From Tubulanus polymorphus (lineage: Eukaryota > Nemertea > Palaeonemertea > Tubulaniformes > Tubulanidae): a DNA stretch of 64,000 bases. The position numbers were made by a program, and so were the translations under genes. The notes under the pieces were generated by a model. That model was not told where the DNA came from. It did no database searches and worked only from the letters and a program-made list of their open reading frames with translations. Positions 9,653 through 35,145 of the stretch are shown here, piece by piece (positions within the stretch are counted from its first letter, which is position 1; every line of letters begins with the position of its first letter). Where the stretch lies: the NCBI RefSeq assembly GCF_964204645.1, contig NC_134030.1, positions 22,449,210 through 22,513,209 on the forward strand, given 5' to 3'.

Positions 9653-10037
9653 TGGCGGGTGAATTGTTTCAATCATTATGATTCCATCAACGCTTAATGC
9701 GTTATTTCATAAAATACATCTTTGAATGAATTCTTAAAGCTTCTTTTGATTAGAAATGATTCTCAATTTGTGTTTTTTTTCGAACTAGACGCTTCACTTC
9801 ATACTCATCTAATCATTTCTGAATCCAGCGTGTCTGAGTGGTTGTCGTGTAAAATTAATTGAGTTCGGCAAGAATTTTATTGATATTTTATAGATAGGAG
9901 ATATGAACAAGTTAACAGTCAATTCTTGGAGAGCGCTATAAAATACCGATAAGTCACCCGATCACTTGATCGACACAAACGAAATTGAACTCATTTTTTT
10001 AAATCATCAAAACAAACTCGATATTCATAATCTAAAT

Positions 10038-10104
10038 CACGTGTTAATATTACGTCTGTATTTAACGACGACGACCTATTTTTGAAACGGTAAAATTCTT
10101 ACCG
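10038..10104 (+). promoter_or_regulatory. conserved upstream block of family X gene A
   Basis: A block of about 80 bp is nearly identical upstream of both family X genes. It contains a CACGTG E-box (10038-10043) and, 45 bp further, the imperfect palindrome CGGTAAAATTCTTACCG (10088-10104). A TATA-like TATTTATAG follows at about 10144. Conservation may only reflect recent duplication, so promoter function is inferred from position. Confidence 0.4.
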
Positions 10105-10264
10105 AACTGGTTTTTGCCGCGCAACCCGCACTTCGTACAGTTACTATTTATAGACGCATATCACGGAACCCTGGAAATACCACTTGATTGTTCTTATTGG
10201 AAACTTATGCAACGCCTAAAAGGTATTAGTTTGTTTTTGGTGGGCGTATGCTGAACGTCTGAAC

Positions 10265-12056
10265 ATGGCTACCAGTAATCCTGATCGCTTTGAACTTTCC
10301 GTTTCTTTCCAAGGACGTCGCGTTAATGTTTGGTCCGATGAGGATAATGTCTACAGGACGATACAAAATTACTTTTATCAGCCGTTGTTTAATTTGGAAT
10401 CAGATCGGATAACTGTGGATGGAAATTTATTACAACTAGATATAATTATGTGGAGTGAAGAATTAGAGAATGTAATTAAACACGAACTGAACACCATTTA
10501 CACAGGACATGTAATAGCGGTGCAAATGATGCCGTTTGATGAGGTAAAAATCTATCATTTTCATTTTCACTTTCATCGTCATCCGCGTATGATACTAGAT
10601 GGGTTACCACTGCGAGGTGAGAGACAAATAAAACTATAGTTTTTTTTTCTTTCAGGTGAAATTATCATGGAGAGGAGCGCCACCTGGTGTCGAGATACCG
10701 GATCATCCCATCCCGTTCAATCACCAACCTCAGAATCATGTGTTTGTCGTTAGATGTGAAAGTAAAGAAATGTGTGAAATCTACAAATCGCGACTTCAAC
10801 AATCACCGCAATCGATAGGTTCGGGTCTTGTGATCGGTGCTAGTCGTCACGGGAACGAATACGTGTTTAGAGTGAACACTGAACCGATCATTGGAGCGCA
10901 GACAGTTCGACCAGACATTGATGAATGTCACGATCATGTTAAACTGTTTCATGATAATTTAGTAAATCAATTCTGTCAAATGAAACACACTTTAGAAACA
11001 GTTGAAGAGAGATTGAACCAGGGCTGTACTGAACACCAGCTTGTAGCATTGGAAGCAAAACTGAACAAAACTATCGATGACGCGATAGGGGGAACTACTG
11101 GTGACGTCATAGGGAGAATTGATGAATTAGAAAGATCTACTGATGATCTCACATGCCATATGGAACATGACGTCATCGATTCATTGATGATCAATACACA
11201 GGTTCAGATAGACTTCTCACCCGTTCTAGTGACGTCACTACCTGGTGGGCACGTGGGTCGACAGTCACGTGTAATATGTGCGGACTGGGGGTCCAGCAAT
11301 ATTTATTACATGGATGATGATAACGTAATGAAGAGATACGTTAAGTGTAATGGCCGTGTTATAGGACTCCTTAATGATAATTACGGACATCTGTTTGTAC
11401 TCGTGAAGAAAAAGACGAAATTCTACCTGAGAAAATATAAAAATCGAGACAAACTGATTCAAGATGGTATCAATGATATCCTGCCTCATTTTACAACCCT
11501 AGTAATCAGTGGTGACAATATCTATATACAGTCAGGGAGGGACATTCGTGTTTTACATTTACTAGAAAACCCTAAAAACAGTTTGATAGATAGAAACCGA
11601 GTGAATAAATATCAGCTCCCGGATGGAGAGTACAGTCATTTCAATTGTTTCACTGTCGACTCACGGGGACGGATGTTCGTTTATTGTAATCGTACGAATA
11701 GTTTTTTATTTTTAACAGCAGAAGCAAAACCGATCAGTTCTATTGATATCAAAGATTGCGGGCTTACATTCGATCCAAGGCGGGGACGCCCGTGCATTAT
11801 AAGTGATAAACACGTATTATTATCGGTAAACCCTGGATACCCTGATTGCAGAGGAGCTGTGATGAGTTTCAGATATAATGATCAGGGGTTCATAGATCGC
11901 CCGCGTATAGTACTGAACTCAACAGACAGTGTGACATGTCAGATATATCAAGTGCGTGACAGCAACACTGTAGCTATCCGTCACTATGATGACAGAAATG
12001 ATCGACACTCATTGAGAATTTATAATATAAACAATATACATGCTCTTACGAAATAA
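10265..12056 (+). CDS. family X gene A: coiled-coil plus propeller-like protein, two exons
   Basis: Not a family I recognise. Exon 1 is 10265-10543 (93 codons, donor GATGAG|GTAAAA) and exon 2 is 10656-12056 (acceptor TTTCTTTCAG|GTG). The 112-bp intron restores the frame, which the GAG|GTGAG site further down would not. The product is 559 aa, with no signal peptide or membrane segment. Residues 1-93 are a compact acidic N-terminal domain (FELSVSFQGRRVNVWSDEDN). Roughly 94-170 is mixed alpha/beta with VVRCESKEMCEIYKSRLQQS. About 190-270 is predicted coiled coil (LETVEERLNQ, LVALEAKLNKTIDDAIG). From about 290 to the end there are repeated strand-like segments (GRVIGLLNDNYGHLFVLV, NCFTVDSRGRMFVYC) resembling an NHL/WD-type propeller, so it looks like a TRIM protein without RING or B-boxes. 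Function is unknown. A close paralogue lies at 15.3 kb. Confidence 0.8.
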
Positions 12057-12826: not shown

Positions 12827-13515
12827 ATCCGTTCACCACGTTTCAGTGCACAGGTTATCGTTCTATAAGGTATAATTTTATTAGCGTAAAATGATAGTTA
12901 ATAAAAGTTCGTAGAGTTAATTTTGATGATCTTCAACTTTACAGGAAATACATGTATCTTATCGCCATTAAGAAGCAACTCAGTTAGAAATGTTATCTTT
13001 AAGAAAACTAGGAGTTCATAGGGACACTTGGATGGAGTGCTCGACGACTCCAATATTCAACAACCCGGTGAACGAATACCAGTAACCACTTAACCTTAGA
13101 ATTCATCACAATAATCTGCACGTGGATCTGATACATTGACAGTGACCGATTCTTGTGGGCGGGTAAGAGGGGGACTGCATGGTCCACGGTTATAAACAGT
13201 AGAACCATCTGGTCGCTCGGAAGGCTTCCACCTATAAGGCGCTGATGATGTATATTGTCTTCTAGGGTATTCAATTTGTTGTCTTAACGAATAATTTTTG
13301 TATTATAGAACCTGCCATGAGCTAGATTTAATTGCGGTGACAAAAAGTGCATGGTGCCAATTTATATCTGGAAATACCATGTGGGCTAAAAAGGTGCACT
13401 TTTAGAAGATTTAACTTTGACTCATTTATTGTAAATTGGTGAAAGAGTATAAACACCAGATTCGACAAAATAAATGAATTTCATTTTGATAGTTCTATAA
13501 TATTTCGACACTTTT
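12827..13515. other. spacer duplicated at 32.6-34.5 kb
   Basis: No gene seen. 13008-13180 is clearly similar to 33125-33305 (CACTTGGAT, ATTCAACAACCCGGTGAACG, CACAATAATCTG, CTTGTGGGCGGGT in the same order). 13430-13515 is similar to the 3' flank of the dynein tail exon at 34420-34515 (AAATGAATTTCATTTTGAT, ATTTTGACACTTTT, GTTGGTTT). Confidence 0.7.
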
Positions 13516-13549
13516 TTGTTCAATTTTTGCGCAACAATGTTGGTTTTAT

Positions 13550-14032
13550 TCAAATCTCGGAATCATCGAGCTGGCCATTATCCTGATGATCTTGTTGCTC
13601 CTCATCCTGATGATCTTGTTGCCCCTCATGTTGATCATCCTGTAGCCCCTCATACCTCTCACCACGTTGCCCCTCATTGTGATCATCCAGCAGCCCCTCA
13701 TGGTGATCGTCCTGCTGCACCTCATGATCATCCTGCTGCCCCTCACCCTGATCACCATCATGCTTCCCCTCACCAGTCACCTTGACATATTGTATTAACT
13801 CAATTTTCAAATTCTGCTGGAAATGATTTTGAGCCGCATTTGAGGTTTCATCCTGATCACGATCTTCAAATGGGATTGGCCCAGACTGATCAGCACCATC
13901 AGTTTGTGATCTCAGGGTCGCTTCTTCAGCATCTGTATCTTCGGCTGCTGCAGCAGGTGCGTGACTCGTGCTACATCGAAAATTCACCACTACCAGAAAA
14001 ACGACGAATTTCAGGGTTGTCATCAGATACAT
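13550..14032 (-). CDS. chimeric ORF: copy of dynein tail-exon end with signal-peptide-like N-terminus
   Basis: A 160-codon single ORF. If translation starts at the second Met (residue 4), the N-terminus is a good signal peptide: basic start, hydrophobic FVVFLVVV, then small residues CSTSHA. The middle, SHAPAAAAEDTD...LRSQTDG and DQSGPIPFEDRDQDETSNAAQ, matches the dynein tail exon (SDAPAAAA...PRSQTDS and DQSGLSPSTERDLHETSNAP). After the shared KVTGEGKH (KVTGDGQH in the parent) comes a new acidic Gln/Asp/His repeat (QQDDHEG-type units, residues about 90-155). The 3' flank also matches that of the parent. Homology stops near 13,960, so the hydrophobic start comes from unrelated sequence. No splice site, TATA box or expression evidence can be seen, so it may be a pseudogene. 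Confidence 0.45.
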   Translation of the reverse strand: MYLMTTLKFVVFLVVVNFRCSTSHAPAAAAEDTDAEEATLRSQTDGADQSGPIPFEDRDQDETSNAAQNHFQQNLKIELIQYVKVTGEGKHDGDQGEGQQDDHEVQQDDHHEGLLDDHNEGQRGERYEGLQDDQHEGQQDHQDEEQQDHQDNGQLDDSEI

Positions 14033-14060
14033 TAATTATTCGAGACCAAGTAAAGAATGA

Positions 14061-15060
14061 CTGAAATTATAAACAAACTAAATCTCAGTTGTGTTCAGCA
14101 TATATAAATATACAATATTGAGAGGGTGTGGTCTATCTGATATGTAGCGAGTGTGACAATGACTGTCTTATGCGGCACTGGCATGTAGGTAATTCTAACA
14201 TACTCTGGCAAGTGAGGAATTTAACTTTTCTCATTTTACGATCATCTCCCGCCAGGGATTCGAACCCGCTACGCTAAAGCCGTTCCCATCACGACTGGTC
14301 CTTACCAGCCGCAAGAACTGGCCTAAGCAAACTGATATAACACTGTTCCCTACGAAACAAGATCTGACACTTTAGTCATGTTATTTGAATATCTAATAGT
14401 AAAATCAATAACCCGTTACTTGAACACGTACCTTACTACGTCACACTCTCGCGGGCGATAGGTAAACAACACTCACCTTCAGCTTCCGCGAGTTGTTACT
14501 TTAAACGTCTGTCTATGTCAACTCCGAATAACACCATCTGTTCCCCATAAAATACAATTCAAATTCTTTTTTAAACAGTCATAACTGTCATAACATCGGA
14601 TAGTGATCGCAATATAACTATAAATTTTTTCAGTTAGATAAATGAGAAACTTACGAGTTCTCTAATTCTGCAGCAGCCGTTTCTACGATATCATCATCAG
14701 TCAGCAGATCGAAGATAACTAGACACTGATAATTCAACCACACATTTATGAAGATGAAAATTCTATACCATATGTGAGTAGCCTCTACAATTGAGACCCC
14801 GAACGTGAATTATTCGCTCGAACTGTTAAACCACGAAATAAGAAGTGTAACCTGTCGTGTCGTTCGAACTAAGTATATTCAGAGTAAACAAGACGAAATC
14901 AAGTTTACCCAGTAATTGGTTGATTAACACCATCGATCTCCACAAGAGTCTCTGCACCGAGCATCGAACTGTTCGACTATATTATACAACGCCTAAGTGT
15001 ATTTACATAATTTCTGGTGTTGGAGGTAACAACATTTAAAAATGGTTTCATTTGTTTATT
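14061..15060. other. spacer upstream of family X gene B
   Basis: No coding exon supported. A single B-box-like GGGTTCGAATCCC (minus strand, 14245-14257) is present without a matching A-box or cloverleaf. Confidence 0.5.
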
Positions 15061-15069
15061 TTTCTAAAT

Positions 15070-15136
15070 CACGTGTTTGTATTACATCTGTATTTAACGA
15101 CGACGACCTATTTTTGAAACGGTAAAATTCTTACCG
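15070..15136 (+). promoter_or_regulatory. conserved upstream block of family X gene B
   Basis: Same block as in front of gene A: CACGTG at 15070-15075 and the palindrome CGGTAAAATTCTTACCG at 15120-15136, about 160 bp before the ATG. The downstream TATA-like sequence is less clear here (TATAATTCATAG). Confidence 0.4.
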
Positions 15137-15292
15137 AACTGGTTCTTGCCGCACCCGCCTTTTGTATAGTTATAATTCATAGACGCTAAACAGAACCCTG
15201 GAAATATCACCCGATTGTTCCGATATAAAAGTTATGCAACGCCCAAGTTGTGTATTTAGTTTATATTTGATGGTCATCAATAACGCGTCAAC

Positions 15293-17069
15293 ATGGCTAC
15301 CAGTAATCCCGATCGCTTTGAACTGTCCGTTCCTTTCAAAGGGCGTCGCGTTAATGTTTGGTCTGACGAGAATAATGTCTACAGGACGATACAAAATTAC
15401 TTTTATCAGCCGTTGTTTAATTTGGAATCTGATCGGATAACTGTGGATGGAAATCTATTACAACTTGATATAATAATGTGGAGTGAAGAATTAGAGAATG
15501 TTATTAAACACGAACTGAACACCATTTACACAGGACATGTAATAGCGGTGCAAATGATGCCGTTTGATGAGGTAAAAATCTATCATTTTCACTTTTACTT
15601 TCATCGTCACCCGCGTATGATACTAGATGGGTTTCCACTGCGAGGTGAGAGACAAATAAAAATGTGGTTTTCTATTTCAGGTGAAATTAGAATGGAGACA
15701 AACGCCACCTGGTGCGGAGATACCGCATCATCCCATCCCGTTCAATCATCAACCTCAGAATCACGTGTTTGTCGTTAGATGTGAAAATGAAGAAATGTGT
15801 GAAGTCTACAAATCGCGACTTCAACAATCACCGCAATCGATAGGTTCGGGTCTTGTGATCGGTGCTAGTCGCCACGGGAACGAATACGTGTTTAGAGTGA
15901 ACACTGAACCGATCATTGAAGCGCAGACAGTTCGACCAGACATTGATGAATGTCATGATCATGTTAAACTGTTTCATGATAATTTAGTAAATAAATTCTG
16001 TCAATTGAAACTGTCAGTAGAACAACTTGAAGAGAGATTGAACCGGTGCTGTACTGAACAACAACTTGTAGCATTGGAAGTAAAATTGAACAAAACTATC
16101 GATGACGCGATAGGGGGAACTATTGGTGATGTCATAGGGAGAATTGATGAAGTGGAAAGATCTACTGATAACGGCATATTTAATTTAGAACTTGACGTCA
16201 TTGATTCATTGATGACCAGTCAACAAGTTCTGACAGACTTCAGACCAAACCTAGTGACGTCATTACCTGGTGAGCAGACGGGTCGACAGTCACGTATAAT
16301 ATGTGCTGACTGGGAAACCAGTGATATCTATATTAATGCAGTGAATAAATACATAACATGTAGTGGCCGTGTACTAGGACTCGCAACTGATAGTGACGGG
16401 TGTCTATTTGTACTCGTGTGGAAAAACACGAAATTCTACCTGAGAAAATATAAATATCAACAGAAACTGTTACAAGAAGATATTACTAGTATCGTGTCTA
16501 GATTTCAAACCTTAGTAATCAGTGGTCATAGTGTCTACGTGCAGTCAGAAAGAGACGTTCATGTTTTACGTTTGCTAGAAAACCCTGTAAACAGTTTGAT
16601 TGATAGAAACCGAGTGAAGAGATATCAGCTCCCGGATGGGGATTACCGTTTTGTAAAGTGTTTCACTGTCGACTCACGGGGACGGATGTTTGTTTATTGT
16701 ATTCGTTCAAAAAGATTATTATATTTAACAGCAGAAGCGGAATTAATCAGTGTTATTCATATGATGAATTGCGGGCTTACATTCGATCCACATGCGGGAT
16801 CCCCGTGTGTTATAAGTAATAAACATGTATTACTATCGGTAAACCCAGGAAACTGTGATAACAGAGGATCTGTTATTAGTATCAGATATAATAATCAGGG
16901 GTTCATAGATCGCCCGCGTATAGTACTGAACTCTACAGACAGTTTGACATGTGAGATACATCAAGTGTGTGACAGCAACACTGTAGCTATCCGTCACTAT
17001 GATAACAGTAATGAACGACATTCATTGAGAATTTATGATATAAACACTGTTCCTGCTCATAGGCAATAA
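15293..17069 (+). CDS. family X gene B, paralogue of gene A, two exons
   Basis: Exon 1 is 15293-15571 (donor GATGAG|GTAAAA) and exon 2 is 15681-17069, giving 555 aa. Intron (109 bp) and exon 1 are nearly identical to gene A, so the duplication is recent, yet both frames are intact. Divergence is concentrated in two places: the end of the coiled coil (gene A DDLTCHMEHDVID versus gene B DNGIFNLELDVID) and loops of the propeller-like half (NRTNSFLFLTAEAKPI versus IRSKRLLYLTAEAELI). The core strands (FTVDSRGRMFVYC, NQGFIDRPRIVLNSTDS) are unchanged. Reading through the intron stays open until 15778 in this copy, but into a frame that is not homologous to anything, so I treat it as intron. It has the same unknown role as gene A. 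Confidence 0.8.
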
Positions 17070-18463
17070 GGAGGGCCTGTCCAGGGGCAGACTTTGACAG
17101 GAGCAAAAAATGAAAAGGGCATATTATATACTGAATAGGGCAAGCTAAGTATCCACGCAGCCCAAAAAAGGGTCTAGAAAATCCGAAATTTCAGCACAAT
17201 TTCATGCAATTTTTAGGCACTTGAGGGACATAAGAGAAACCTCAAGGCACATTTGTTTGAAATCTGTTTTCACAAACCATTTCAGTTAGTAGGAAAATCG
17301 TCTTTGTTTATACCAGTTTACAAACCGGTTTTGCATAAACCGACGTCTTTATTCAGCCGTAAACGGTTTGCGCAAACCGACTAAAACGTTCACGGAGCAA
17401 CATCAAACCGACTTTTCCAAGATGGCGGAATAAGGAAATTTTCGATGTCAGCTGACTTAAATTGACTTTTCGTTCAGTCCCAATTGTTCACAGTACGGCA
17501 AACCGATTTATGACGCAATAAACCGATTTAAACCGGTTTATACAAACCGATTTCAAACAAATGCGCCTCCGACTCTACTTGTTTAACGGTGTGTTGTGCG
17601 CAAGACGCTTTGTTTTCTACCCGGTTGCGAAGATCCTCAGTACTAAACGTCACCGTGCTTCTGCGTTACATATTTTAAACGTATAATACTAAAATAGTTT
17701 CCATTACACTCATCGCTATAAGACAACCGTTAATTGTCGTTATACAGAATTGTTTTATTTTTCATACCGAACAAAATGAGAAAATATTTTTCAAGATAAT
17801 GTTAGATTTAAACGTTAGAAATACGCAAATTTTGAGAAAACTCAACAGCGCTTTCAATCCGAACCATGTCTTTATTGTCAGATGTACACATGGAGTAGCT
17901 GGCTACAAGGGTAGGACTGTCTAATTTCAGTATGACTTTCCCTACGCCTCTCTTGGACCAGGTCTGCACTTCCCTGTCGAGTACCGACACATAGTTTCAG
18001 TCTGGTGCAGTGATGAGTTTGGTAGAAAAAAACTCCGTGTATTTTCAAGGTTCAAATCAAACTGAATTTGGATTAAAAACGCAGATGAAATTAGTTCAAT
18101 CCTCGTTCGGGTACCGGCACACACTTGATGGCGTAAAAATACACCGGGTCATCCGTACTGGAAATTGGTTCATTTTCAATGAGATTCTAACTGGATCTTT
18201 AGACGTCCAAATCCGAAAAAAGATGCACTTTCACACTCAGTGATTATAGATTTCACTGAAAATCTATTTACTATTTGGAAAAGTTGAATTCGAATTTAAG
18301 TGAAATGTAGAAGTGAGACTGAAGCTTGATAACCCAGTAACTATTAGGGATACCTGGTAGATCCTCGCATAATACTCACAATGCCACACAATAGTGGTGC
18401 CGGTAACCTAATTGAGTAAAGAGTTGATGAAAAGAATTAGGTGACGTTTATGTCGTCTCGCGT
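17070..18463. repeat. start of lectin cassette 1, CGGTTT-rich block and conserved flank
   Basis: 17270-17560 is dense in CGGTTT/AAACCG words in both orientations, including a perfect AAACCGGTTT at 17530-17539. The whole block recurs at 27900-28240, and its right-hand end recurs at 22085. The following sequence (17565-18000) is repeated at 22085-22560. The minus-strand ORFs it produces change between copies and carry no recognisable domain. Confidence 0.6.
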
Positions 18464-20024
<1,561 letters not shown>

Positions 20025-21800
20025 ATTCAAGTCAATATTTTCCTTTATCTATAACTGATAACAAACACGAATAGATAGAACAGTTTTAGCTTTTGAATAA
20101 ATTTCGCTGTTTTAATTGCTAAAAAATCTAACAGAATGTTCGTCGTCGAAAAGGAACTGCTTCCAGTGGTTACTGGGAATTATAGGGCTACCGCGAGTAG
20201 CGCATGCGCGTGAAATGTTCAGCGAGTTCTGAATCATTCAAGGATCTAAGGAAAGCGTGAAAAAAAGATACGCGTGAATTATCAAAGTATTTTGTACATT
20301 TCTGTCAGGTTGCTACAAACAATCCTCGAAAATGAATATTTACCTGTCTCCAGCGTCCTTAGGGAACTCGATGAAAACTGAACTGTCATCGATATTTCAT
20401 CGAATTTAGAATTAATGTAGATTTTATTTGTTAAATAGACTTTTGCAATTGGCGTATAATCGAAAGGCCATATTGTTTCAAAGTCGATTGAAAATTGAGT
20501 GAAGAATCAGAGGTATATTTACTTTACATTTGTAAAAATAATTCAAGATAGAAAACTGTGAGTAAAAGCTATTAACTTTCAAAACAGTTTGTTTAAAAAT
20601 CGTGTATGTTCCCGGTGTTATTTTACTTACGGTTTCTGGCAGCGAATTCCACGATTTGTTAAATGATTATTTTACCGGAATTATATATATGCGTGGTATC
20701 GATTTTGCTTGAAAACATGTGCACCAAAAGCAAACACGAAAAATGCTTTACTGTCGCTTAATTTTGAAAAATATCCCTGAGAGCGGCTAGGTGATCAATA
20801 GCTTTAAGCTATTTACTTCATCAGGCTCAATATATATTACTTAATTTTCTATTTAAATGCGTATCTTTTTGAATGGTCTTTTATGATTTAATCGTTGATA
20901 AAGAACAATAACAGAGGTTTTAAATAGACTATAATTTTATTTGGAGGAATCATTCAATTATTAAACGTGTCAATCTGCTTTCTGGGGCGAGATGTTCCAT
21001 TCTTCCCATTTTTCCAACCTCGATACTCCATATACTTCACGTGCGTTCGGGACTACATCTTTAGACATTTTCAATTGGCCCTTCCGAGCTCCCATCAGGG
21101 CCGTAGCTAGCGTTTGAATTTTATGGGGGCAGAGAAACCCGAAAAAGGACTGTTATATAGGATATTGTTTTATAACAATAGTATTTGCAAAAATGGCACT
21201 TTTCCAAAATGTGTAGGGGGACACCACTGCCCCCTGTTTAATACGACCCTAATATATGTAAGGAGTTGTACTATTGCCCTTCTCGGGTCCCATAAACGTG
21301 GTCTTGAGAAATTATCGTATGTTCAGTTCTTATTCCTCACAGGTTTTCTGTTTGAAACATTATAAGAATAAACACCAGACTTCAAGTGTTTCACCCGAGA
21401 CATTCTTAACTGAAAAGAGCGTACACGCGTACACAAACACCAGACAATATCATTTCAGCGATTAAACGTCCACAAATTCATAACGGAAGTTTAAGAGTCT
21501 ACGGATTGTTAGGTTACACTATGTTACAGATGGTTACACTCGGTGGTTAAAGACTGCATTTAATAAAATTATATTTCAAATGGAAAATTATTGAATAATA
21601 TCATATGATATGTCTGGTATCGATTATGCGTGAAAATACATGTCCTGGAAGCAAACATGGGTGAAGCTTTGTAAGGTACTTGATCTGAGCAAATACTAAT
21701 GGGCAGCGGTTGTCTCCAGTTTTAATCGATAATAACGAGAGAAATCCCACTTTAAATTCAGCCAAAACATTTAAAAGTTCTATGGTAAAATGGTATATTA
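20025..21800. repeat. upstream part of lectin cassette 1
   Basis: The sequence just upstream of the lectin ATG (GTTATCAGTTATAGATAAAGG on the minus strand) is conserved in all three cassettes and may be the core promoter. 20603-20760 (TTACTTACGGTTTCTGGCAG, ATTATTTTACCGGAATTATA) recurs at 25511-25690 and 30736-30900; only copy 2 keeps it open for 66 codons. 20930-21480 recurs at 25780-26160 and 31010-31440. No further gene supported. Confidence 0.6.
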
Positions 21801-21845
21801 CGAGCAACGTTTCGGCTTAATACTATAAGCCATCATTGTGCGTAC
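21801..21845 (-). ncRNA. degenerate hammerhead-like motif
   Basis: On the minus strand: GATGGCTTATAGTATTAAGC (stem-loop), then CGAAACGTTGCTCG. The 3' half of the core (GAAAC) is intact, but the CTGATGA side has changed, so it is probably inactive. It abuts the family X fragment on its right. Confidence 0.45.
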
Positions 21846-21855
21846 TGTGGAAGGT

Positions 21856-22088
21856 ACGTGCGTTATAAGTATAAAAGAAAGTGATGAAGAAGTATTTCTA
21901 TCGGTAAATTATGTCTCCTTAGTAGTATATAGGCTGTGATAAGTTTAAGACATAATGATCAGGGGTTTATAGATCACCCGCGTATAGTACTGGACTCTAC
22001 ACACATTAAGACATGGGAGATGCATCAAGTGTGTGACAGCAGCGCTGTAGCTATCCGCCCCTGGGATAACAATAATGAACACCACACA
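21856..22088 (+). pseudogene. family X 3' fragment 1
   Basis: Starts at a sequence matching gene B near 16808 (TTATAAGTxATAAA) and runs through AATGATCAGGGGTTTATAGA, CCGCGTATAGTACT and GTGTGTGACAGCAGCGCTGTA. It is frameshifted and interrupted early (GTAGTATATAGG) and lacks the natural stop. It ends where the CGGTTT-associated flank begins. Confidence 0.8.
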
Positions 22089-22830
22089 CGATTTCAAACA
22101 AATGAACCTCTGAACTCTACTTGTGTAACGGTGTGTTGTGCGCAAGACGCTTAGTTTTCTACCTGGCTGCGAAGATCCTCAGTACTAAACGTCACCGTGC
22201 TTCTACCTTACATATTTTAAGCGTAAACATTAAAATAGTTTCCATTAAACTCATCGCTATACGACGACAGTAAATTGTCGTTATACAGAATAGTTTTACT
22301 TTTCATACCGAACAAAATGAGAAAATATTGTAGTGGAGATAATATTAGAATTTAACGATACACAAATTTTGAGAAAACTCAACAGCGCTTTCAATCCAAA
22401 CCATGTCTTTATTGTCAGATGTACACATGGAGTAGCTGGCGACAAGGGTAGGACTGTCTAATCTCAGTATGACTTCCCCCACGCCTCTTTGGATCAGGTC
22501 TGCACTTCCCTGTCGAGTACCGACACATGGTTTGAGTCTGGTGCGGTGGTAAGTTTTGTAACAAAAACACCTTGTATTTTCAAGTTTCAAATCTAACTGA
22601 ATTTGGATTAAAAACGCTGAAGATTTATATATATAAGATAGACTGGTTGCTGCTGAGTCTATATGTTTGCCCAAGAAATCGTGGGCGATGTAATAGACCA
22701 ATGAATGGTTTGCAGCAAGGGTTTGTGTTGGCGCGAGCTTCAGTGGGCGGCAATCAAACCCCGGCAAGTGAGGATGAATAGGTGAAGAGTTGATGAAAAG
22801 AATATTAGTGGCGTTTATGTCATCCGGCGT

Positions 22831-24403
22831 TTATTTCTGTCGACAGGGCTTCGAACAAATAGCTGTCAAAAAAAGCGCGCATGAAACATCGTTCCACAGA
22901 CCACTACTTCGATACAATTCAACGCAAGGTTCATAAGAAGTGCCCATCAGATAACCATTTCCATTCGGTTCTCCATTGTTCCATCGCATAAAACCCTGCA
23001 GCAATATGAATGAAAAAAATATAAATAACGTTTTCGCTGCGTATGGTGAGCTCAGCCCGCCATAAATATTTGATGTGCGCAAAACGAGCTCAGCTCGTCG
23101 ATATAGTATTGTACGTATATACATTGTACAACGTTATAACTCATGTACGCGCATACCAGACGACTACTGCTAGTCCTGATTTTTCTGAAAGATGAAAAAG
23201 TGTCAGCTGCCGATGCACAAAACCTTATATCCATTGTTTATACATGTGAAGGACCCGCTTGGATAACCACAGAACTATAATCTTATAATTCTATAGTGTA
23301 ACCACCGGTCAAACGAATTTGAATTGAATTGGTAAATAGGACTAGTTCTATTGGTCTACTGGTTAGCACGCATGCTGTGTACGGGACCCGGGTTCGATCC
23401 CCGGTGAGTGCGCGTAATTTCACTATCAATCGTTACATCTATTCACGGGAATATTCCTACATACCGAAGGGAAGGTGAATGGTCTTCTAAAACCAAGCCA
23501 AACACTTTTGACGTTAGAAGGTATCAGACCTGAAATGATGACAGTATTGTGTTAGTTAAACTTCTATCACCCTCCCCTCTTCTGTAAAACACAGCATCAT
23601 TCAAACATAACGTATAATTACTTTGAGCTATACGATTCTCCTCCATGCTTTCGATTCTGGCTATTTGTGTAGAACGACAATGGTGGTATGCGTGCTTCCA
23701 TCCCGGAGAAAACTTGAAGCACTTGTTGTTTCCAGCTTTTGTCCAACCAGCATCACAACACGGTATTGTAACACACGCCGAATAAACTACATCACAATGC
23801 CAACAAAGATTAGCAACCTGACTTGTTAACCTGAGGGGCCGGTTCCGGTCATGGCTTAGACTTAAGACTAGTCTAGGACTATTTTAGTTATATAGCTAAT
23901 CTAACAGCTTAAGACCAGTCGTAAGATTTAAGACCACTTTTGGACTTATGTCTCGACTATGGAACCGGCCCCTGGGGTCACTTGCCTACTGTGCTTAGTT
24001 TGGTCAGAGCCTAACCCTTGGTTGACCATTATTTGCCCTTTGATCCATTCAATCCTTTATATCATTTTTCGTCATCCCTTTTGATATATAACACATATAC
24101 AACACAATAAGGCCTACCCCTAGTTTACTTTTCGTCTTTTGATTGGTTTAGTTGCGTAAAGTTTTTATTTTGTAAACTGCCCCTAATTCGTACCACATCT
24201 TATATCTTCATTAGTCTGTTTATTCAAAATTATTCAGAATAATTTTGTGACGACGATAGTACGCCAGCAGGTGTATTCGGTGCACGATAATATCCCCAAA
24301 AGGCTGCCTGATAGCTATATTTATGAATGTGGACATTGATATTGATATATTTACCTGTCGCTGTAGAACAGACCAGTAACAGAGTCGATAACATCAGTTT
24401 CAT
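22831..24403 (-). CDS. secreted C-type lectin, copy 2 (four exons)
   Basis: Exons: 24355-24403 (MKLMLSTLLLVCSTAT), 23622-23786, 23465-23529, 22831-22995; 147 aa. Domain features: ACVTIPCCDAGWTKAGNNKC, ARIESMEEN, VWLGFRRPF, WNNGEPNG, GLWNDVSC, AICSKPC, so EPN and WND are kept. Odd point: the acceptor used in copies 1 and 3 (TTCAG) reads TTCGG here. The next upstream AG (GATGTAG) keeps the frame and adds about five residues at the N-terminal side of the domain, which looks like compensation for a lost splice site. The role is inferred as for copy 1. Exon 2 is the most divergent part, including its loop CFKFSPGWKHAYHHC. Confidence 0.85.
23345..23412 (+). repeat. tRNA-like sequence in lectin intron, copy 2
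   Basis: Same A-box and B-box arrangement as at 18933, with a few substitutions (ACGGGACCC for ACGAGACCC). Duplicated as part of the cassette. Confidence 0.6.
23835..23972. mobile_element. short TIR element (MITE-like), 138 bp
   Basis: Perfect 12-bp terminal inverted repeats GGGGCCGGTTCC ... GGAACCGGCCCC, and a core of imperfect inverted repeats built on CTTAAGACC/GTCTTAAG. No ORF. Absent from the matching positions of cassettes 1 and 3, so it inserted after the duplication. Confidence 0.8.
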
Positions 24404-24619
24404 ATTCAAGTCAATATTTTCCTTTATCTATAACTGATAACACACACGAATAGACAAAACAGTTTTAGCTTTTGTATAAATTTCGCTGTTTTAATTGCTA
24501 AAAAAATCTAACAGAATGTTCGTCGTCGTAAAGGAACTGCTTCCAGTGGTTACTGGGAATTATAGGGCTAACGCGAGTAGCGCATGCGCGTGAAATGTTC
24601 AGCGAGTTGTGAATCATTC

Positions 24620-25020
24620 AGGGATCTAAAGAAAGAGCCAATGGGGCATAATCTAACTATGGACTTCTTTGACTGTATCCAACACTAGATATAATCACCA
24701 GAATAACAAACGAGTTTTCTGCAAAATAATAGAAGATAATAATAGAAAATGCAGAAAATAATAGAAAACCTTAATGATATCGATTATTATGCAAATCAAA
24801 GGGGTTTTCTAATCACATTCACCTAAGGATCCTAGAATCTGTAATTGGAATGTATTCATTCATAGTTGGTAACGGTATATCAAAAACAAAACTTAATTGA
24901 AAAACATTCTTTGCCTTAAAGATAACACATTGCTTACTATTATCGACAGTAAATGAATTATATAATATTAAGGATCAAAGTTGTTTTGCATTCGAATATC
25001 GATAATTGAATTTAATTGAG
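24620..25020. other. insertion specific to lectin cassette 2
   Basis: About 400 bp of AT-rich sequence separates two blocks that are adjacent in cassette 1 (near 20250). No ORF or terminal repeat recognised. Confidence 0.4.
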
Positions 25021-26467
25021 TCACCGACAAAAAAATGATACGCGTGAATTATCAAAGCATGTTGTATATTTCTGTCAGGTTGCTAAAGAAAAATCCTCGT
25101 AAATGAATATTCATCACCTGTCTCCAGCGTCCTTGGGGAACTCGATGAAAACTGAACTGTCATCGATATTTCATCGAATTTAGAATCGTAGATTTTCTTT
25201 GTAAAATACACTTTCCCAATTGGCGAATACTTTGAATAATCGAAACTACTCAAGGAATTCAAACGCCATAAATTTAGATATAAAAACTGTGATGTGCCTT
25301 GTAGGCCAAATCTTGACCGGTCGGTTTAAGGTTTTGTTTTCTATGTGTATGTGGCTTGTAATTATATGTAAATGAACCGAGTTTCGCAATAAAATTAATG
25401 ATAATAATAACAAAATATTTTCTTTTCACTTGTTAAAATAATAATATGATATCGATAGAAAACTGTTGATTAAAGCTATTAACTTTCAAAACATTTTGTT
25501 TAAAAATCGTGTATGTTCCCGGTGTTATTTTACTTACGGTTTCTGGCAGCGAATTTCACGATATGTTAAATGATTATTTTACCGGAATTATATATAGGCG
25601 TGGTATCGATTTTGCTTTAAAACATGTGCATCAAAAGCAAACACGAACAATGCTTTACTGTCGCTTGATTATGAAAAGTATAATATCTCAAACAAAGGGG
25701 GCTAGATGACCAAAACTTTAAGCGATTTACTTCATTAGGCTCAATTGATATTATCATATATATTTTCTAATTGAATGCGTATCTTTTTGTATGATCTTTC
25801 ATAATTTAATTGAATTATAAGGGGGTAGAGAAACCCGAAAAGGCGAGTTATATAGGATGGATTTTCAAAAAGGGCACCACTAAAATTTGTATGGGGACAA
25901 CATGCCCTCTTGCCCCCCTATGTAAGGAGTTGTATCATTGCCCTTTCCGGCTCCCATATCCGCGGCCTTGAGGAATAACCGTAGGTTAGTTTCTATTCCT
26001 CACAGATTTTCTGTTTGAAACATTATAGGAATAAACGCCAGACTTCAAGTGTTTTACCCGAGACATTCTTAAGTGAAAATGAGCGTAAACGTGAATATAC
26101 AATCATTACCGGACAATATCATCGGTCAGCATTCCGTCAGAGATTAATCGTCCAACAAATTCATAACGGAAGTTTGAGAGTCTACGGATTGTTAGGTTAC
26201 ACTATGTTACAGATGGTAGTTATAGCCTATATTGTCTATATAATCATAATTCAAATGGAAGATTATTGAAGATTATCATATGATATGTCTGGTATCGATT
26301 ATGCATGAACACATGCGTCCTGAGAGCAAACATGGGTGAATAAGCTTTGTAAGGTACTTACTTTGTTCGAGCAAATACTATGTATGAGTTTGCCGTTGTA
26401 TCAAGTTTTAATCAATGTTAACGAGAGATATTCCACTATGTATTCAGTCAAATAGTTCTATGGTAAA

Positions 26468-26522
26468 ATCATATGTTTCGAGCAACGTTTCGGCTAAATA
26501 TTATTGGCCATCATTAGGCGTA
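26468..26522 (-). ncRNA. degenerate hammerhead-like motif beside fragment 2
   Basis: Minus strand: CCTAATGATGGCCAATAATA ... TTTAGCCGAAACGTTGCTCG. The stem and GAAAC are intact, and the CTGATGA core has one change (G to A at its third position). It abuts the family X fragment. Confidence 0.5.
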
Positions 26523-26604
26523 CCGTGGGAGGCCCGTGTGTTATAAGTGATAAGCAAGCATTGCTATTGGTAAATTCTGGTCACCCTGATTGCAGAGGAG
26601 CTGT

Positions 26605-26770
26605 GATTAGTGATAAGATAAAAACCCACTATCTAAAAATTAAAAAGAAATCTAAAATCGAGAATATGTTTATTGAAACAATCTAAAACATAAGAACACG
26701 ACGTTTCGATCTCACACTAGAGATCATCGTCAGGTGTGAGATATTGACTAAAAACAGGGGTATATACAGA
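26605..26770 (-). mobile_element. hammerhead-bearing element, one arm
   Basis: Begins ATAAAAACCCACTATCTAAA like the foldback element at 12592, carries a core at 26697-26740, and ends after GGTGTGAGATATTG without the second arm. Inserted into family X fragment 2. Confidence 0.75.
26697..26740 (-). ncRNA. hammerhead ribozyme candidate (best conserved core)
   Basis: Minus strand order: CACAC (stem I 5' side), CTGACGA, TGATCTCTAGTGTGAGATC (stem II, 6-bp GATCTC/GAGATC), GAAAC, GTC (cleavage triplet), GTGTTC (stem I 3' side). Stem I pairs for four base pairs (CACA with TGTG, reading outward), and all invariant core residues of a type I hammerhead are present. Stem III is reduced to the self-complementary ACGT, as in the short-stem-III hammerheads described from Penelope-like elements and retrozymes, which tend to act as dimers. 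Activity is inferred. Confidence 0.65.
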
Positions 26771-27299
26771 GGAGATTAGTGATTAGTATCTGGTATAATG
26801 ATCAGGGGTTTATAGATCACCCGCGTATAGTACTGGACTTTACAGACATTTAGACATGGGAGATGCATCAAGTGTGTGACAGCAACACTGTAGCTATCCG
26901 TCACTGGGATAACAGTAATGAACAGAACACATTGAGAGTTTATGATATAAACACTATACCCGCTCTTAGGCAATAATACTAGCCAGTTTTTAGGATTGAA
27001 ATATTGAGACATTGTAACCGGTAAAAGCCAAAGGGACTTGTCCCATTGATTGTGAATGAATAAAAACAGTATTAATGACCAATCCCAGTATCCCTGTATA
27101 ATAAAATACAAGGGTGGCAACTAATCGTCTATCTGAAAATGACCTTTCCACTTCAATCGACTGTAATTCCAAAAATCTCAACCGATTCACATGAAATAAG
27201 CTTTAATACAAACAAGGAGACTTTCTGCTTCCAACGAGCCTATAACCATTACTCTACGAAAAATATCTCACAACGAAATCGGCGTTTATTTATGGGAGA

Positions 27300-27800
27300 T
27301 AGCTCAAAATGGAGGCGTACTGCCATCAGGTAGTGGCGACGCCTGGACGAACATGTTTTGGGAAAATGGTGAATGTCTGTTGAATGTCTGAGGGATATTT
27401 ACAGACAACAGGTTAATTGCTGCTTTAGTAACAGTGGAAGTCTCCTGACCGCTCGGAACAATTGCACTGACGGTGATGACTGCAGTGTCTTCTAGGTTAT
27501 TATTGTCTTGATGAAGGCCGTTGATAACAGTCCAAGCTTCCTGATTACATGGAAGAATTGTCCCGATGGTGACGACTCTTGTGTCTTCTAGTGTCTTGAA
27601 GAAAGCCGTTTTAATATCATAGAACGAGCTAGAATTGATGGTCGTAGCAAAAAGGTGCCTGCAATTTCTACATGGAAATTCGTCCAGTTCGTGTATCTAT
27701 TGGCGCATACGCATCTGGCGCAATGTGCCTTGCCGATAAGTAGACCGATTTCTAAGTCACGCTCAGATAATTCTATATCCGATAGATGAACCCAATCTTG
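27300..27800. other. spacer, partly repeated at 33.3-33.5 kb
   Basis: GTACTGCCATCAGG and neighbouring sequence recur near 33473. Two internal partial copies of a motif around GTGTCTTCTAG (27481, 27583). No gene supported. Confidence 0.4.
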
Positions 27801-27899
27801 TGTATTCTTACCGTGAGATGAATAACTTTGTTACCGGGAGACTACCTTTACTAAAGACAAGATTCAACTATATACGTTTTACCGTTTCGCTCAAACCGG

Positions 27900-28240
27900 A
27901 AGAGAGAACTGAGGCACATTTGTTTGAAATCGGTTTGCACAAACCCGTTTCGGTTTGTAGGAAAATCGTCTTTGTTTATACCGGTTTACAAACCGTTTTT
28001 GCATAAACCGACGTCATTATTCAGGCGTAAACGGTTTGCGCAAACCGACTAAACCGTTCACGAAGCAACATCAAACCGACTTTTCCAAGATGGCGGAATA
28101 AGGAAATTTTCGATGTCAGCTGACCTAAATTGACTTTTCGTTCAGTCCCAATTGTTCACAGTACGGCAAACCGATTTATGACGCAATAAACCGATTTAAA
28201 CCGGTTTATACAAACCGATTTCAAACAAATGCACCTCTGA
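27900..28240. promoter_or_regulatory. CGGTTT/AAACCG-rich block, cassette 3
   Basis: About 15 CGGTTT or AAACCG words in both orientations, with AAACCGGTTT at 28198-28207; copy of 17270-17560. The palindrome AACCGGTT is the consensus site of Grainyhead-family factors. Regulatory use is inferred only. Confidence 0.35.
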
Positions 28241-28643
28241 ACTCTACTTGTGTAACGGTGTGTTGTGCGCAAGACGCTTTGTTTTCTACCTGGTTGCGAA
28301 GATCCTCAGTACTAAACGTCACCGTGCTTCTGCGTTACATATTTTAAGCGTAAAACCGCAAATTGTCATTTTACAGAATAGTTTTATTTTTCATACCGAA
28401 CAAAATGAGAAAATATTCTTCAAGATAATGTTAGATTTAAACGTTAGAAATACGCAAATTTTGAGTTTTAATATCTAGCCAATCAGATGCCTTTATACCA
28501 GTATGACGTTTGCTCTATAAATACCACGCATCTGATTGACTAGATATAAAGACTGGTTGCTGCTGAGCGGGAATCTGTCCGCCCGAGAAATCGAGTGAAG
28601 AGTTGGTGAAAAGAATATTAGCGACGTTCATGTCGTCCGGCGT

Positions 28644-30149
28644 CTATTTCTGTCCACAGGGCTTCGAACAAATAGCGTACCTCGCAGTCGAGCATGAAAT
28701 ATCGTTCCACAGACCATTACTTCGATACATTTCAACGCAATCTTCATAAGGAGCGCCGCGAATACCATTTCCATTCGGTTCTCCATTGTTCCATCGCGTA
28801 AAACCCTGCAGCAATATGAATGAAAAAGAAATATAACTACGTTTTCGCTGGGTTTGGCGACATCAGCCTGTCATTAATATTTGATGTGCTCAGCTCGTAC
28901 GTATATACATTGTACAACGTTATAACTTATGTACACGTATAGCAGACAACTGCTGCTAGTCCTGATGTTTCTGAACGATAGAGAACTATGAACTTATTAT
29001 TCTATGGTATAACCACTGGTCAATGAATTTGAATTGGTCAATAGGACTAGTTCTATTGGTCTACTGGTTAGCACGCATGCTGTGTACGAGACCCGGGTTC
29101 GATCCCCGGTGATTGCGCGTAATTTCACTATCAATCGTTACATCTATTCACGGGAATACTCCTACATACCGTAGCGAAGTCAAATGGTCTTCTAAAACCA
29201 AGCGAAGCAGTGTGCACGTAAAAAGGTATCAGTCCTGAAATGATGACAGTATTGTGTTAGTTAAACTTCTATCACCTTCCACTCCTCTATAAAACACAGC
29301 ATCATTCAAACATGATATACCGTTCATAGGATAAAAACCCACTATGTTCAAATTAAAAGAATTTTTTAAATCAAGAATTCATTCATTCAAAAAATGTCAA
29401 ATATAAAATCGATTTTAAAAATTCTTTTAATTTGTACATAGTGGGTTTTTATCTTATTATCCGTTCTTCACGTTTGAGTGTGGTTATCGTTCTATGATAT
29501 ATAGTTACTTTGAGCTACATTATTCTCCTCCATGCTTTCGATGCTGGCCACTACTGAACCCCTACAATTATCTTGAGGGGTCGTAAACGAATACATAAAG
29601 ATTAAACATTTGTTGTTTCCAGCTTTTGTCCAACCAACATCACAACACGTATCAGCTGAATAAACGACATCAATGCGAACAAAGATTAGCAACTTGACTT
29701 TTTAACCTGGGGTCACTTGCCTACTGTACTTAGTTGGGTCATAGCCTAACCCTTGGTTGACCATTATTTGCCCTTTGATCCATTAAATCCTTTATTTTGT
29801 TAAATCTTCATCATCTCCTTTCTCATTTGATATATAACTCATATATTACACAATAAGGCCTACGCCTAGTTTACTTTTCGTCTTTTGATTTGTTTAGTTG
29901 CGTAAAGTTTTTATTTTGTAAACTGCCCCTAATTCGTACCATATCTTATATCTTAGTTAGTCTGTTTATTCAAAATTATTCAGAATAATTTTGTGACGAC
30001 GATAGTACGCCAGCAGGTGTATTCGGTGCACGATAATATCCCCAAAAGGCTGCCTGATAGCTATATTTATGAATGTCGACATTTTTATTGATATATTTAC
30101 CTGTCGCTGTAGAACAGACCAGTAACAGTGTCGATAATATTAGTTTCAT
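28644..30149 (-). CDS. secreted C-type lectin, copy 3 (four exons)
   Basis: Exons: 30101-30149 (MKLILSTLLLVCSTAT), 29509-29655, 29170-29234, 28644-28805; 140 aa. Features: DTCCDVGWTKAGNNKC, ASIESMEEN, SLGFRRPF, WNNGEPNG, GLWNDISC, AICSKPCGQK. EPN and WND are retained. It differs from the others in exon 2 (CLIFMYSFTTPQDNC, a rewritten loop) and exon 3 (TASLGF where copies 1 and 2 have the conserved tryptophan, VWLGF). Losing that core Trp could weaken the fold. Acceptor and donor sites are all present, so I call it a gene and not a pseudogene. The intron before exon 3 has taken in the palindromic element at 29329-29455. Confidence 0.8.
29050..29117 (+). repeat. tRNA-like sequence in lectin intron, copy 3
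   Basis: Identical to copy 1 across the A-box and B-box (GGGTTCGATCCCC). Confidence 0.6.
29329..29455. mobile_element. palindromic element without hammerhead centre
   Basis: Ends ATAAAAACCCACTATGTTCA ... TGTACATAGTGGGTTTTTAT. Arms of about 50-60 bp, including AATTAAAAGAATTTTTTAAA and its complement, meet without the GAAACGTC core. This is a deletion derivative of the element at 12592. Flanked by ATCTTATTATCCGTTC, the same flank that follows the 12592 copy. Confidence 0.8.
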
Positions 30150-31564
30150 ATTCAAGTCAATATTTTCCTTTATCTATAACTGATAACAAACACGAATAGA
30201 CAAAACAGTTTTAGCTTTTGTATAAATTTCGCTGTTTTAATTGCTAAAAAAATCTAACAGAATGTTCGTTGTCGTAAAGGAGTATGTTGTATATTTCTGT
30301 CAGGTTGCTAAAAACAATCCTCGAAAATGAATATTAACCACCTGTCTCCAGCGTCCTTAGGGAACTCGATGAAAACTGAACTGTCATCGATATTTCATCA
30401 AATTTAGAATCGTAGATTTTCTTTGTAAAATACACTTTCCCAATTGGCGAATACTTTGAATAATCGAAAGACCATATTACTATAAAGTCGATTAAAAATT
30501 GAGTACAGAATCAGGGATACATTTATATATCATCCAAGCAAACTACTCAAGCAATTCAAACGCCATTTAACAGTAAATTTGGATATAAAAACTGTGATGT
30601 GCCTTGTAGGCCAAATCTTGACCGGTCGGTTTAAGTTTTTTTCCTATGTGTGTGGCTTGTAATGCTATGTAAATGAAACGAGTTGGAAAACTGTTGATAA
30701 AAGCTATTAACTATTCAAAACATTGTGTTTACAAATCGTGTATGTTCCCGGTGTTATTTTACTTACGGTTTTTGGCAGCGAATTTCACGATATGTTAAAT
30801 GATTATTTTACCGGAATTATATATATGCGTGGTATCGATTTTGCTTGAAAACATGTGCATCAAAAGCAAACACGAAAAATGCTTTACTGTCGCTTAATTA
30901 TGAAAATTGATATCCCAAATAAAGTGTGACTGGGTGACCAAAACTTTAAGCTATTTACTTCATTAGGCTCAATTTATAATACTACATTTTCTATTTAAAT
31001 GCGTATCTTTTTGAATGATCTTTTATGATTTAATTGTTGATAAAGAAAAAGACACACTAGTTTTTTTTGGAGGAATTATTCAATTATCAAACGTGTCAAT
31101 CTGCTTCTGGGGCGAGACGTTCCATTCTTCCCATTTTCCAACCTCGATACTCCATATACTTCACGTGTGTTCGGGACTACATCTTTCGACATTTTCAATT
31201 GGCCCTTACGGGCTCCCATCAGGGCCGTTTCTAGCGTTTGAATTGTATGGGGGCAGAGAAACCCGAAAAGGGCAGTTATATAGGATGTATTTGCAAAAAG
31301 AGCACTTTTCCAAAATTTCTAGGGGGACAATATGCCCCCTTGCCCCCAATATAAGGAGTTGTATCATTGCCCGTCCCGGCTCCCAAATCCGCGACCTTGA
31401 GAAATGATCGTATGTTAGTTTCTATTCCTCACAGATTTTCTGTTTGAAACATTGGCTTTCCACTAGTAATAAAAATAAAATGAAATAAAAGAAATGATGA
31501 TAATAATAATCGTTATATTAATGGTAATAACAAACATAATTATCATAATCAGTAGTAGTACATA

Positions 31565-31939
31565 GTGACCAACAATGAATCTTTTTCGAGAAAGACAGTG
31601 ATGAGGGAATTGCTGATATTTCTATCGAAGTTTCTATATATAATTAAATGTAGTTTATCTAAGGTTCGTTTCCTGAATAGATACGAAAGAGATTTGATGC
31701 GGGACGACAGTCGGCAGTGTTACGCCAGGTGCGTGGCATCTGAGCAAGAAATGATTTGCTATAAAATTTGTATTTGTGAAAAGCAGCTCTGGGATAATTT
31801 AGTTGTCTGGTGTTATGATGATGGAAGTAAGAGTTCTGCTGAAACATATTTACTAGGTGAATACACAATTAACGCCGTACAATATCAGTCAGCATACTTT
31901 CAGAGATTAAAAGTCGACAGATTCAAATCGGTAGTTTGA
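31565..31939 (+). CDS. hypothetical cysteine-containing ORF
   Basis: A 124-codon ORF present only in cassette 3. Residues about 44-75 hold six cysteines (QCYARC, ICYKICIC ... WC). The stretch 31666-31855 could instead be an exon: it is preceded by TATCTAAG|G and followed by CTAG|GTGAAT. No signal peptide and no recognised family. The region after 31860 is shared with cassette 2 (26090-26160), where it is not open. Weakly supported. Confidence 0.2.
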   Translation: MTNNESFSRKTVMRELLIFLSKFLYIIKCSLSKVRFLNRYERDLMRDDSRQCYARCVASEQEMICYKICICEKQLWDNLVVWCYDDGSKSSAETYLLGEYTINAVQYQSAYFQRLKVDRFKSVV

Positions 31940-32237
31940 GTGTCTACGGATTGTTAGGTTACAGTTGGTAGTTAAAGTCTGCATTTCATATATAATTACA
32001 ATTCAAATGGAAGATTATTGAAGAATATCATATGATATGTCTGGTATCGATTATGCGTGAAAACATGCGTCGTGAGAGCATACATGGGTGAATAAACTTT
32101 GTAAGGTATTTACTTAATTCGAGCAAATACTATGTATGAGACAGCCGTTGTCTCAAGTTTTAATCAATAATACCAAATAATAATGAGAGATATTCCACTA
32201 TATATTCAGCCAAAATGTTCTACTGTAAAATTATATA

Positions 32238-32284
32238 TTTCGAGCAACGTTTCGGCTTAATATATACTATTAGCCATCATAGGC
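32238..32284 (-). ncRNA. degenerate hammerhead-like motif beside fragment 3
   Basis: Minus strand: CCTATGATGGCTAATAGTAT ... TTAAGCCGAAACGTTGCTCG. One base of the CTGATGA core is missing; the stem and GAAAC are intact. Confidence 0.45.
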
Positions 32285-32562
32285 GTACCGTGGGAGGTCC
32301 GTGTGTTATAAGTGATAAACAAGCATTGCTATTGGTAAATTCTGGTCACCCTGATTGCGGAGGAGCTGTGATTAGTATCAGATATAATGATTAGGGGTTT
32401 ATAAGATCATCCGCGTATAGTACTGGACTCTACAGACAGTTAGACATGGGAGATGCATCAAGTGTGTGACAGCAACACTGTAGCTATCCGTCACTGGGAT
32501 AACAGTAATGAACAGAACACATTGAGAGTTTATAGTATAAACACTTTTCCCGCTCTTAGGCA
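32285..32562 (+). pseudogene. family X 3' fragment 3
   Basis: Same left junction as fragment 2 (GTGGGAGGTCCGTGTGTTATAA). It has an in-frame stop (ATGATTAGGGG), an extra base in TTATAAGATC and another TAG (GACAGTTAGACATGG). Its downstream spacer (32610-33300) matches the spacer after gene A (12220-13270), not that of gene B. Confidence 0.85.
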
Positions 32563-32794
32563 CCAGCTGGTTTTTAGGATTGAAGTATTGAGACATTGTA
32601 ACCGCTAAGAGTTGGTATCGAGTAGAACAGATCGCAACTCAGCAATCATTATTCTATATATCATAATTTTAAAATGATACAGTTTTACAGCAAACGCCAA
32701 GTTTCATTAATAACGAGACAGGAAGACTTGGTGTCACGTGACATATTTTAACTTTCATAAAATAGTAATTAACAAAAATCCATGTTACGAGAAA

Positions 32795-32930
32795 AATACC
32801 ACAATAAATTCAGCCAAAACGAGAAACTTGAGTAGGAGAGTATATGTATTTGCGCAACGTTTCGGCTAAAGACTATTAGCCATCGTCAGGCCTGATGATG
32901 GGATTTCTCTCGTTTTCATCATATATTGTG
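32795..32930 (-). mobile_element. hammerhead-bearing element, second family
   Basis: Contains the core at 32853-32898 and is bounded on the left by GAGAAAAATACCAC and on the right by ATGATGGGATTTCTCTCG. Related sequence flanks the motifs at 21.7, 26.4, 32.2, 49.0 and 57.6 kb (GAGAGAAATCCCAC). Confidence 0.6.
32853..32898 (-). ncRNA. hammerhead ribozyme candidate, intact core
   Basis: Minus strand: GGC, CTGACGA, TGGCTAATAGTCTTTAGCC (stem II GGCTAA/TTAGCC), GAAAC, GTT, GCGC. All core residues are present and GTT is a permitted cleavage triplet. Stem I is short (about 2 bp before a mismatch), so activity would depend on additional contacts. Confidence 0.55.
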
Positions 32931-33305
32931 TATCTTCTCGTCTAATCCATAAGGTTGGTTTTAATGATTGGTTTTTTCAACTCGCTTGTTCAATATTTGG
33001 ATTATACCCGGCCTGTAAAATTCGTGGGTAGTCAATATCGATATGAAACGCATGTATCTTATCGTCATGACGATGTAGCGAATGCCTATTATATGTTAAA
33101 AAACTACTCCGATTTGAAATGTTGTCTTAAAAAAAACTAGGGGTCCAGTGCCACTTGGATCAGAAGAAGTGCTTGACGATTCCACCATTCAACAACCCGA
33201 TGAACGAATACCAGAAACAAATGACCTTTAAAACTCATCACAATAATCTGGGCCTAGATCTGAATGTGATAAACCGACTGAGTGACCGGTGCTTGTGGGC
33301 GGGTT

Positions 33306-35103: not shown

Positions 35104-35145
<42 letters not shown>

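Follow-up and report, generated by a model that had tools for sequence, protein, structure and literature searches.

In the genome of Tubulanus polymorphus, an open reading frame (ORF) of 160 amino acids shares a common ancestry with the last exon of a gene for a dynein heavy chain that lies 21 kb distant, as supported by alignment of their DNA. The ORF runs from ATG to TGA on the minus strand (13550-14032) of the 64,000-nucleotide stretch analysed here, referred to as the window, and is a candidate gene for a secreted acidic protein. Shared ancestry, a breakpoint, a tandem repeat and an open frame are established by the analysis. For the history behind them, we tentatively favor, at a little under even probability, a duplication of the dynein end that was joined to a local leader, with subsequent growth of a repeat and secretion of the product. 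Weighed against the reverse direction of transfer, which is rather doubtful, the dynein gene is probably the source.

Codons 1-24 of the ORF (13961-14032, minus strand) are signal-peptide-like and have no detected dynein homology, while homology to the last exon of dynein extends from codon 25 to slightly past VKVTG (13743-13960, minus strand). The C-terminal Gln/Asp/His repeat described in the earlier note is present as a 24-bp tandem array of 7.4 copies (13580-13754, minus strand), encoding EGQQDDH-like units. From residue 25, the putative mature protein comprises 136 amino acids with a pI of ~4.05, 40 Asp and Glu residues, 9 His and no Cys. The ORF protein matches no Pfam family and no PDB sequence at E<=1, and at that Pfam threshold neither an AAA motor nor a dynein C-terminal domain is found in it; across the genome searched (268 Mb, 77 contigs), it has three matches at E<=1, itself included. 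Two AATAAA motifs lie on the minus strand, at 13425-13430 and, overlapping the ORF stop codon, at 13545-13550. On the dynein side, ATTAAA (34424) is the sole such signal within 33900-34530, with no AATAAA. Upstream of the ORF, 14241-14287 is a dispersed repeat, 86-90% identical in 13 of the 20 genomic rows listed; it carries what we take to be a tRNA-like B-box and is probably a SINE.

Direct comparison bears out the earlier claim that the ORF shares ordered landmarks and 3' flanking DNA with the dynein last exon. Within the window, blastn aligns 13758-13893 with 34544-34694, the DQSG-DETSNA-VKVTG block, at 73% identity (E 5e-21), and the 3' flanks 13413-13546 and 34374-34517, likewise at 73% (E 9e-18). 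More sensitive scoring lengthens the matched blocks to 13743-13960 and 13389-13591, the latter (minus strand) being homologous to 34351-34557 and consisting mostly of 3' flank. The APAAAA/RSQTD stretch is recovered only by a placed test: its score in a free local DNA search is equalled in 17 of 500 shuffles, and in a protein test by a fraction of 0.298 of 1000 shuffles. At its collinear place (35030-35165), 13894-13960 scores 129, a value equalled by none of 2000 dinucleotide shuffles and none of 2730 control windows. With the alanine run removed, the same-place score is 87, reached by one of 2000 shuffles and none of 2730 control windows. As a placed test suits a collinear claim, homology was accepted up to 13,960; placing this stretch on the adjacent repeat at 34695-34790 instead gives a weaker fit (p 0.055). 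Upstream of 13960, the ORF resembles dynein at chance level (600 of 2000 shuffles), and 22 of 200 shuffles are as good when a wider dynein stretch is compared on the coding strand, confirming the break near 13,960. The ORF copy covers only part of the dynein gene, from codon 25 to the stop plus the 3' flank.

The dynein heavy chain gene itself is real, as judged from domain matches in frames on the minus strand. One frame (37981-38220) matches Dynein_C (Pfam, E 4e-8), and another (47419-47919) matches AAA_9 (Pfam, E 6.5e-11) together with 12 distinct PDB sequences at E up to 0.001, whose names or domain labels identify them as dynein heavy chains. A match to AAA_lid_11 stays below the Pfam threshold (22.6 bits, cut-off 31), and for five of the eight presumed exon frames, as well as two more, Pfam yields nothing convincing. 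This is a divergent gene and, at a guess, perhaps DNHD1-like. Its last exon occupies a stop-to-stop frame at 34516-35907 (minus strand; 34516-35874 from the first ATG) and forms a long C-terminal extension past Dynein_C; the label "dynein tail" used in the earlier note is inappropriate for it, as that term in dynein nomenclature denotes the N-terminal part. In Pfam, this exon is matched weakly by a single low-complexity family (17 bits, cut-off 100), and its protein has three genome-wide matches at E<=0.01, itself included. The portion that it has in common with the ORF runs from APAAAA to the stop (34516-35148, minus strand) and is also where third-position GC falls. At the homology edge, the alanine run of the dynein exon is encoded by a pure CAG array of 13 copies (35106-35144), possibly a break-prone site.

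Homology reaches beyond the dynein exon and 3' flank named in the earlier note. Further collinear homology connects 12968-13193 to 33096-33332 (strand unspecified), and the 3' end of a neighbour gene (11783-12052) also matches near dynein, at 32292-32562. With homology continuing downstream, the ORF therefore represents one end of a segmental duplication in a duplication-rich region. The neighbour gene is present in two tandem copies, 86% identical, both on the plus strand: copy 1 at 10031-12056, with frames 10265-10639 and 10656-12056, and copy 2 at 15063-17069, head to head with the ORF. Neither frame of copy 1 matches Pfam at E<=1, nor does the longer one match PDB at E<=1. Near the ORF this gene is close to full length, while beside dynein just a 3' fragment was found; relatives also occur on contig C12 at ~2.016-2.054 Mb. 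Comparison with two of these relatives of the DNA upstream of copy 1 (p ~0.01) and of copy 2 (p 0.31-0.35) was too weak to decide on a simple tandem duplication as the entire history. Between the neighbour gene and dynein, 17232-32611 contains three large blocks of duplicated DNA, and a neighbour-gene 3' fragment closes each of them; 19175-19389 consists solely of the dinucleotide AT, repeated in 107.5 copies.

A third copy of the dynein 3' end resides on contig C12. It is 90.9% identical to 32899-34929, more similar to dynein than the ORF is, and also matches parts of 29554-32766 in pieces at 89 to 95%. This copy breaks off inside the repeat of the C-terminal tail and runs on into frames resembling a mobile element. 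At L006:5108-5719 (~8.322 Mb on that contig), the tail copy forms one continuous frame of 204 codons with coding sequence of an apparently mobile, virus-like element, and neither Pfam nor PHROGs gives a match for that frame. The frame after it, L006:5723-6310, has a match to endonuclease VII (E 6.1e-6; E 6.5e-6 in a second search) and by eye resembles part of a family B DNA polymerase. Other frames of the element gave no match in four of five cases in one search and in two of three in another. Over the last 60 codons compared, dynein and the C12 copy differ by 1.5 silent and 7.5 replacement changes (pS 0.038, pN 0.054), hence the dynein tail shows no sign of constraint there either.

The front of the ORF appears to have a different origin from its body. 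The earlier note regarded the gene as a dynein end plus a newly captured secretion signal; the dynein-homologous end and the leader-like front hold, whereas capture is not supported, as no genomic donor was found. In a first-look DNA search of the genome (E<=0.001), which a weak donor could escape, 13945-14260 finds only itself, pointing to recruitment of local DNA. A leader captured from a donor gene is thus disfavored within the animal's own genome, and a leader of diverged dynein sequence is disfavored by chance-level similarity. Neighbouring DNA, not another gene, is the apparent source of the ORF head, whose uniqueness at the DNA level is what a partial duplicate with recruitment requires. 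Codons 1-24 include an eight-residue stretch with a mean hydropathy of 3.8, reached by two of the 86 ORFs that are at least 60 aa long, this one included. A cleavable signal peptide should have n-, h- and c-regions, with small residues at -3 and -1; a crude, home-made signal-peptide rule is passed by one of these 86 and by three of 275 ORFs of at least 32 aa, this ORF being counted in both. Among 20,000 random 282-nt upstream sequences of the same base content, a leader of this kind arises in 0.2% and an in-frame ATG in 21%.

The proposed N-terminal signal peptide is plausible by this rule, but its cleavage after SHA is doubtful, because Pro would occupy position +1, which is unfavorable for signal-peptide cleavage. 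Cleavage after CSTS or APA would fit better. Read by eye, neither ATG is in a strong context. A TATA-like stretch 69-80 nt before the ATG (14101-14112, minus strand) constitutes weak evidence, since matches are common in the window and their count is swamped by a microsatellite. An acceptor-like TTTATAATTTCAG directly upstream of the ATG raises the alternative that the ORF is the terminal exon of a longer spliced gene, with the leader partly intron and the true start upstream. We consider this very improbable, as a leader that reads so well would then be an accident.

In the favored history, a segment comprising the neighbour gene together with the 3' flank of dynein and the end of its last exon would have been duplicated 21 kb away, with the cut falling within the alanine run of the exon. 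Unrelated adjoining DNA would have given the truncated coding end an in-frame ATG, a hydrophobic leader and possibly a promoter, while the original stop position and the 3' flank would have been retained. The 24-bp repeat would then have expanded in frame ahead of the stop. Transcription, leader-directed targeting to the secretory pathway and cleavage near residues 23-27 are presumed to follow, and the mature protein would be disordered, extracellular and polyanionic, with a possible capacity for binding cations.

We consider it somewhat probable that the ORF is translated; less probable, at well below even chance, is a pseudogene fragment, in which a partial duplicate has acquired both its frame and its hydrophobic leader by chance. 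Over 60 aligned codons, ORF and dynein differ with pN 0.242 and pS 0.254, giving a pN/pS of 0.95 (bootstrap 0.56-1.92), with 0.56 in the first piece (14 codons) and 1.20 in the second (46 codons). The differences are distributed over the codon positions as 14, 13 and 17, and the 3' flank is 27% different, akin to the aligned codons. These codons behave as neutral DNA or unconstrained disordered protein would. A pseudogene would account for this pN/pS and for a shared part as diverged as the flank; moreover, the repeat region is also open in other frames, and many duplicated fragments surround the ORF. The seven repeat units, with the eighth, degenerate unit left out, have a pN/pS of 0.48, the lowest among six frames, but 12% of neutral simulations reach this value (P 0.12, not significant), and codon-position bias in these units is not significant as proof of coding. 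Against a pseudogene stands the fact that the frame has stayed open despite 27% divergence, a gap of 15 nt and a repeat array that varies, together with the ~0.2% probability of the leader arising by chance. In a neutral model with indels, the open frame of the last 58 codons of the dynein tail survives in 2.3% of runs at t 0.165, with 11% at t 0.10 falling to 0.4% at t 0.25; for the repeat array the figure is 2.5%. These values are to be read bearing in mind that the ORF was chosen for being open and that the indel rate was taken from one flank of 147 bp. When indels are omitted, survival rises to 0.37 for the last 58 codons (t 0.165) and 0.24 for the array.

The direction of transfer is a separate matter. 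The earlier note named the dynein gene as the source; common ancestry stands, while the direction was assumed, and a break in third-position GC (GC3) at codon 241 of the last exon fits dynein as the recipient. In the reverse history, a secreted acidic gene would have existed first, beside the neighbour gene; the pair would have been duplicated, and a deletion would have fused the body in frame onto dynein. That the acidic C-terminal tail of dynein stems from such a fusion with a neighbouring secreted-protein gene, the 13.5-kb ORF being the surviving intact relative, is in our estimate unlikely. GC3 of the last exon is 0.545 over codons 1-242 and 30/97 (0.31) in the non-repeat tail, close to the 0.335-0.373 of the neighbour genes. 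The best change point, codon 241, lies next to the homology edge at codon 243, none of 500 permutations being as strong, and holds without the alanine run as well as without both the alanine run and the repeat block. Stratified by amino acid, with the first 11 codons of the exon's own reading frame left out of the reference, the 97 tail codons include 30 ending in G or C compared to 45.0 expected (p 0.0002). Most of this deficit falls on the 39 codons adjoining the edge (7 compared to 17.8 expected), while the last 58 alone give a weaker signal (23 compared to 29.9, p 0.022). The GC3 break beside the homology edge counts in favor of the reverse direction. This direction would also agree with the neighbour gene being near full length at the ORF and found as a 3' fragment alone at dynein, and would dispense with ~1 kb of filler from 13,960 to neighbour copy 2. 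However, three other dynein frames are low in GC3 too (0.394, 0.407 and 0.435; the remaining four in-frame, 0.527-0.625), and a low-complexity tail could arise by repeat expansion inside dynein with a codon bias of its own. Under the reverse direction, it would be coincidental for the break to fall right after the leader; the repeat of alanine codons is a likely place for a break in its own right; and the upstream comparison of the neighbour copies (p ~0.01 for copy 1, 0.31-0.35 for copy 2) is weak.

If transcribed, the ORF would be a compact gene with body, leader and repeat each having an origin within 21 kb that is visible or can be bounded, allowing for tests in sister genomes of how the end of a cytoplasmic protein turns into a secreted one. 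A silent ORF would amount to an ordinary fragment of a duplication. The GC3 break, by coinciding with the homology edge, turns the direction of transfer into something that can be answered, and should the reverse be true, a motor protein has been lengthened by a piece of an extracellular protein. Among the papers listed by a literature search, none showed a partial duplicate of a dynein heavy chain gene turned secreted, which does not prove its absence.

Genes of this kind are already known. As defined in PMC3449122, a partial gene duplicate with recruitment is one in which part of one source gene is copied and the unique part of the ORF is unmatched elsewhere in the genome, with comparative genomics distinguishing the ancestral copy from the derived one; on this last point, the GC3 break calls for caution. 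Sdic of Drosophila resembles our ORF as a new gene incorporating part of a dynein gene (PMC3449122). Unlike Sdic, the ORF has no second parent gene that we could find and no motor part. Sdic is reportedly a two-gene fusion of dynein intermediate chain and annexin, with a product that is still a dynein subunit. The type III antifreeze gene of an Antarctic eelpout, derived from sialic acid synthase, likewise comprises a partial copy of a terminal exon with its 3' flank, and its signal peptide comes largely from flanking non-coding DNA, as proposed for the ORF (PMC3449122). That gene has two exons, some parental 5' part, more than 30 tandem copies and a known function, whereas the ORF is one open frame in one copy, with no 5' part and a candidate function only. 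The Antarctic antifreeze glycoprotein gene, derived from trypsinogen, also kept the terminal exon and 3' UTR and amplified a short repeat, but it retained the 5' part of its parent (exon 1), while the ORF leader does not come from dynein (PMC3449122 for the antifreeze gene). Finally, the flounder type I antifreeze gene, which derives from Gig2 and hence from a different parent, parallels the ORF in repeat growth and a signal sequence gained later, and according to PMC9122973 its origin was traced through the loci of other fishes.
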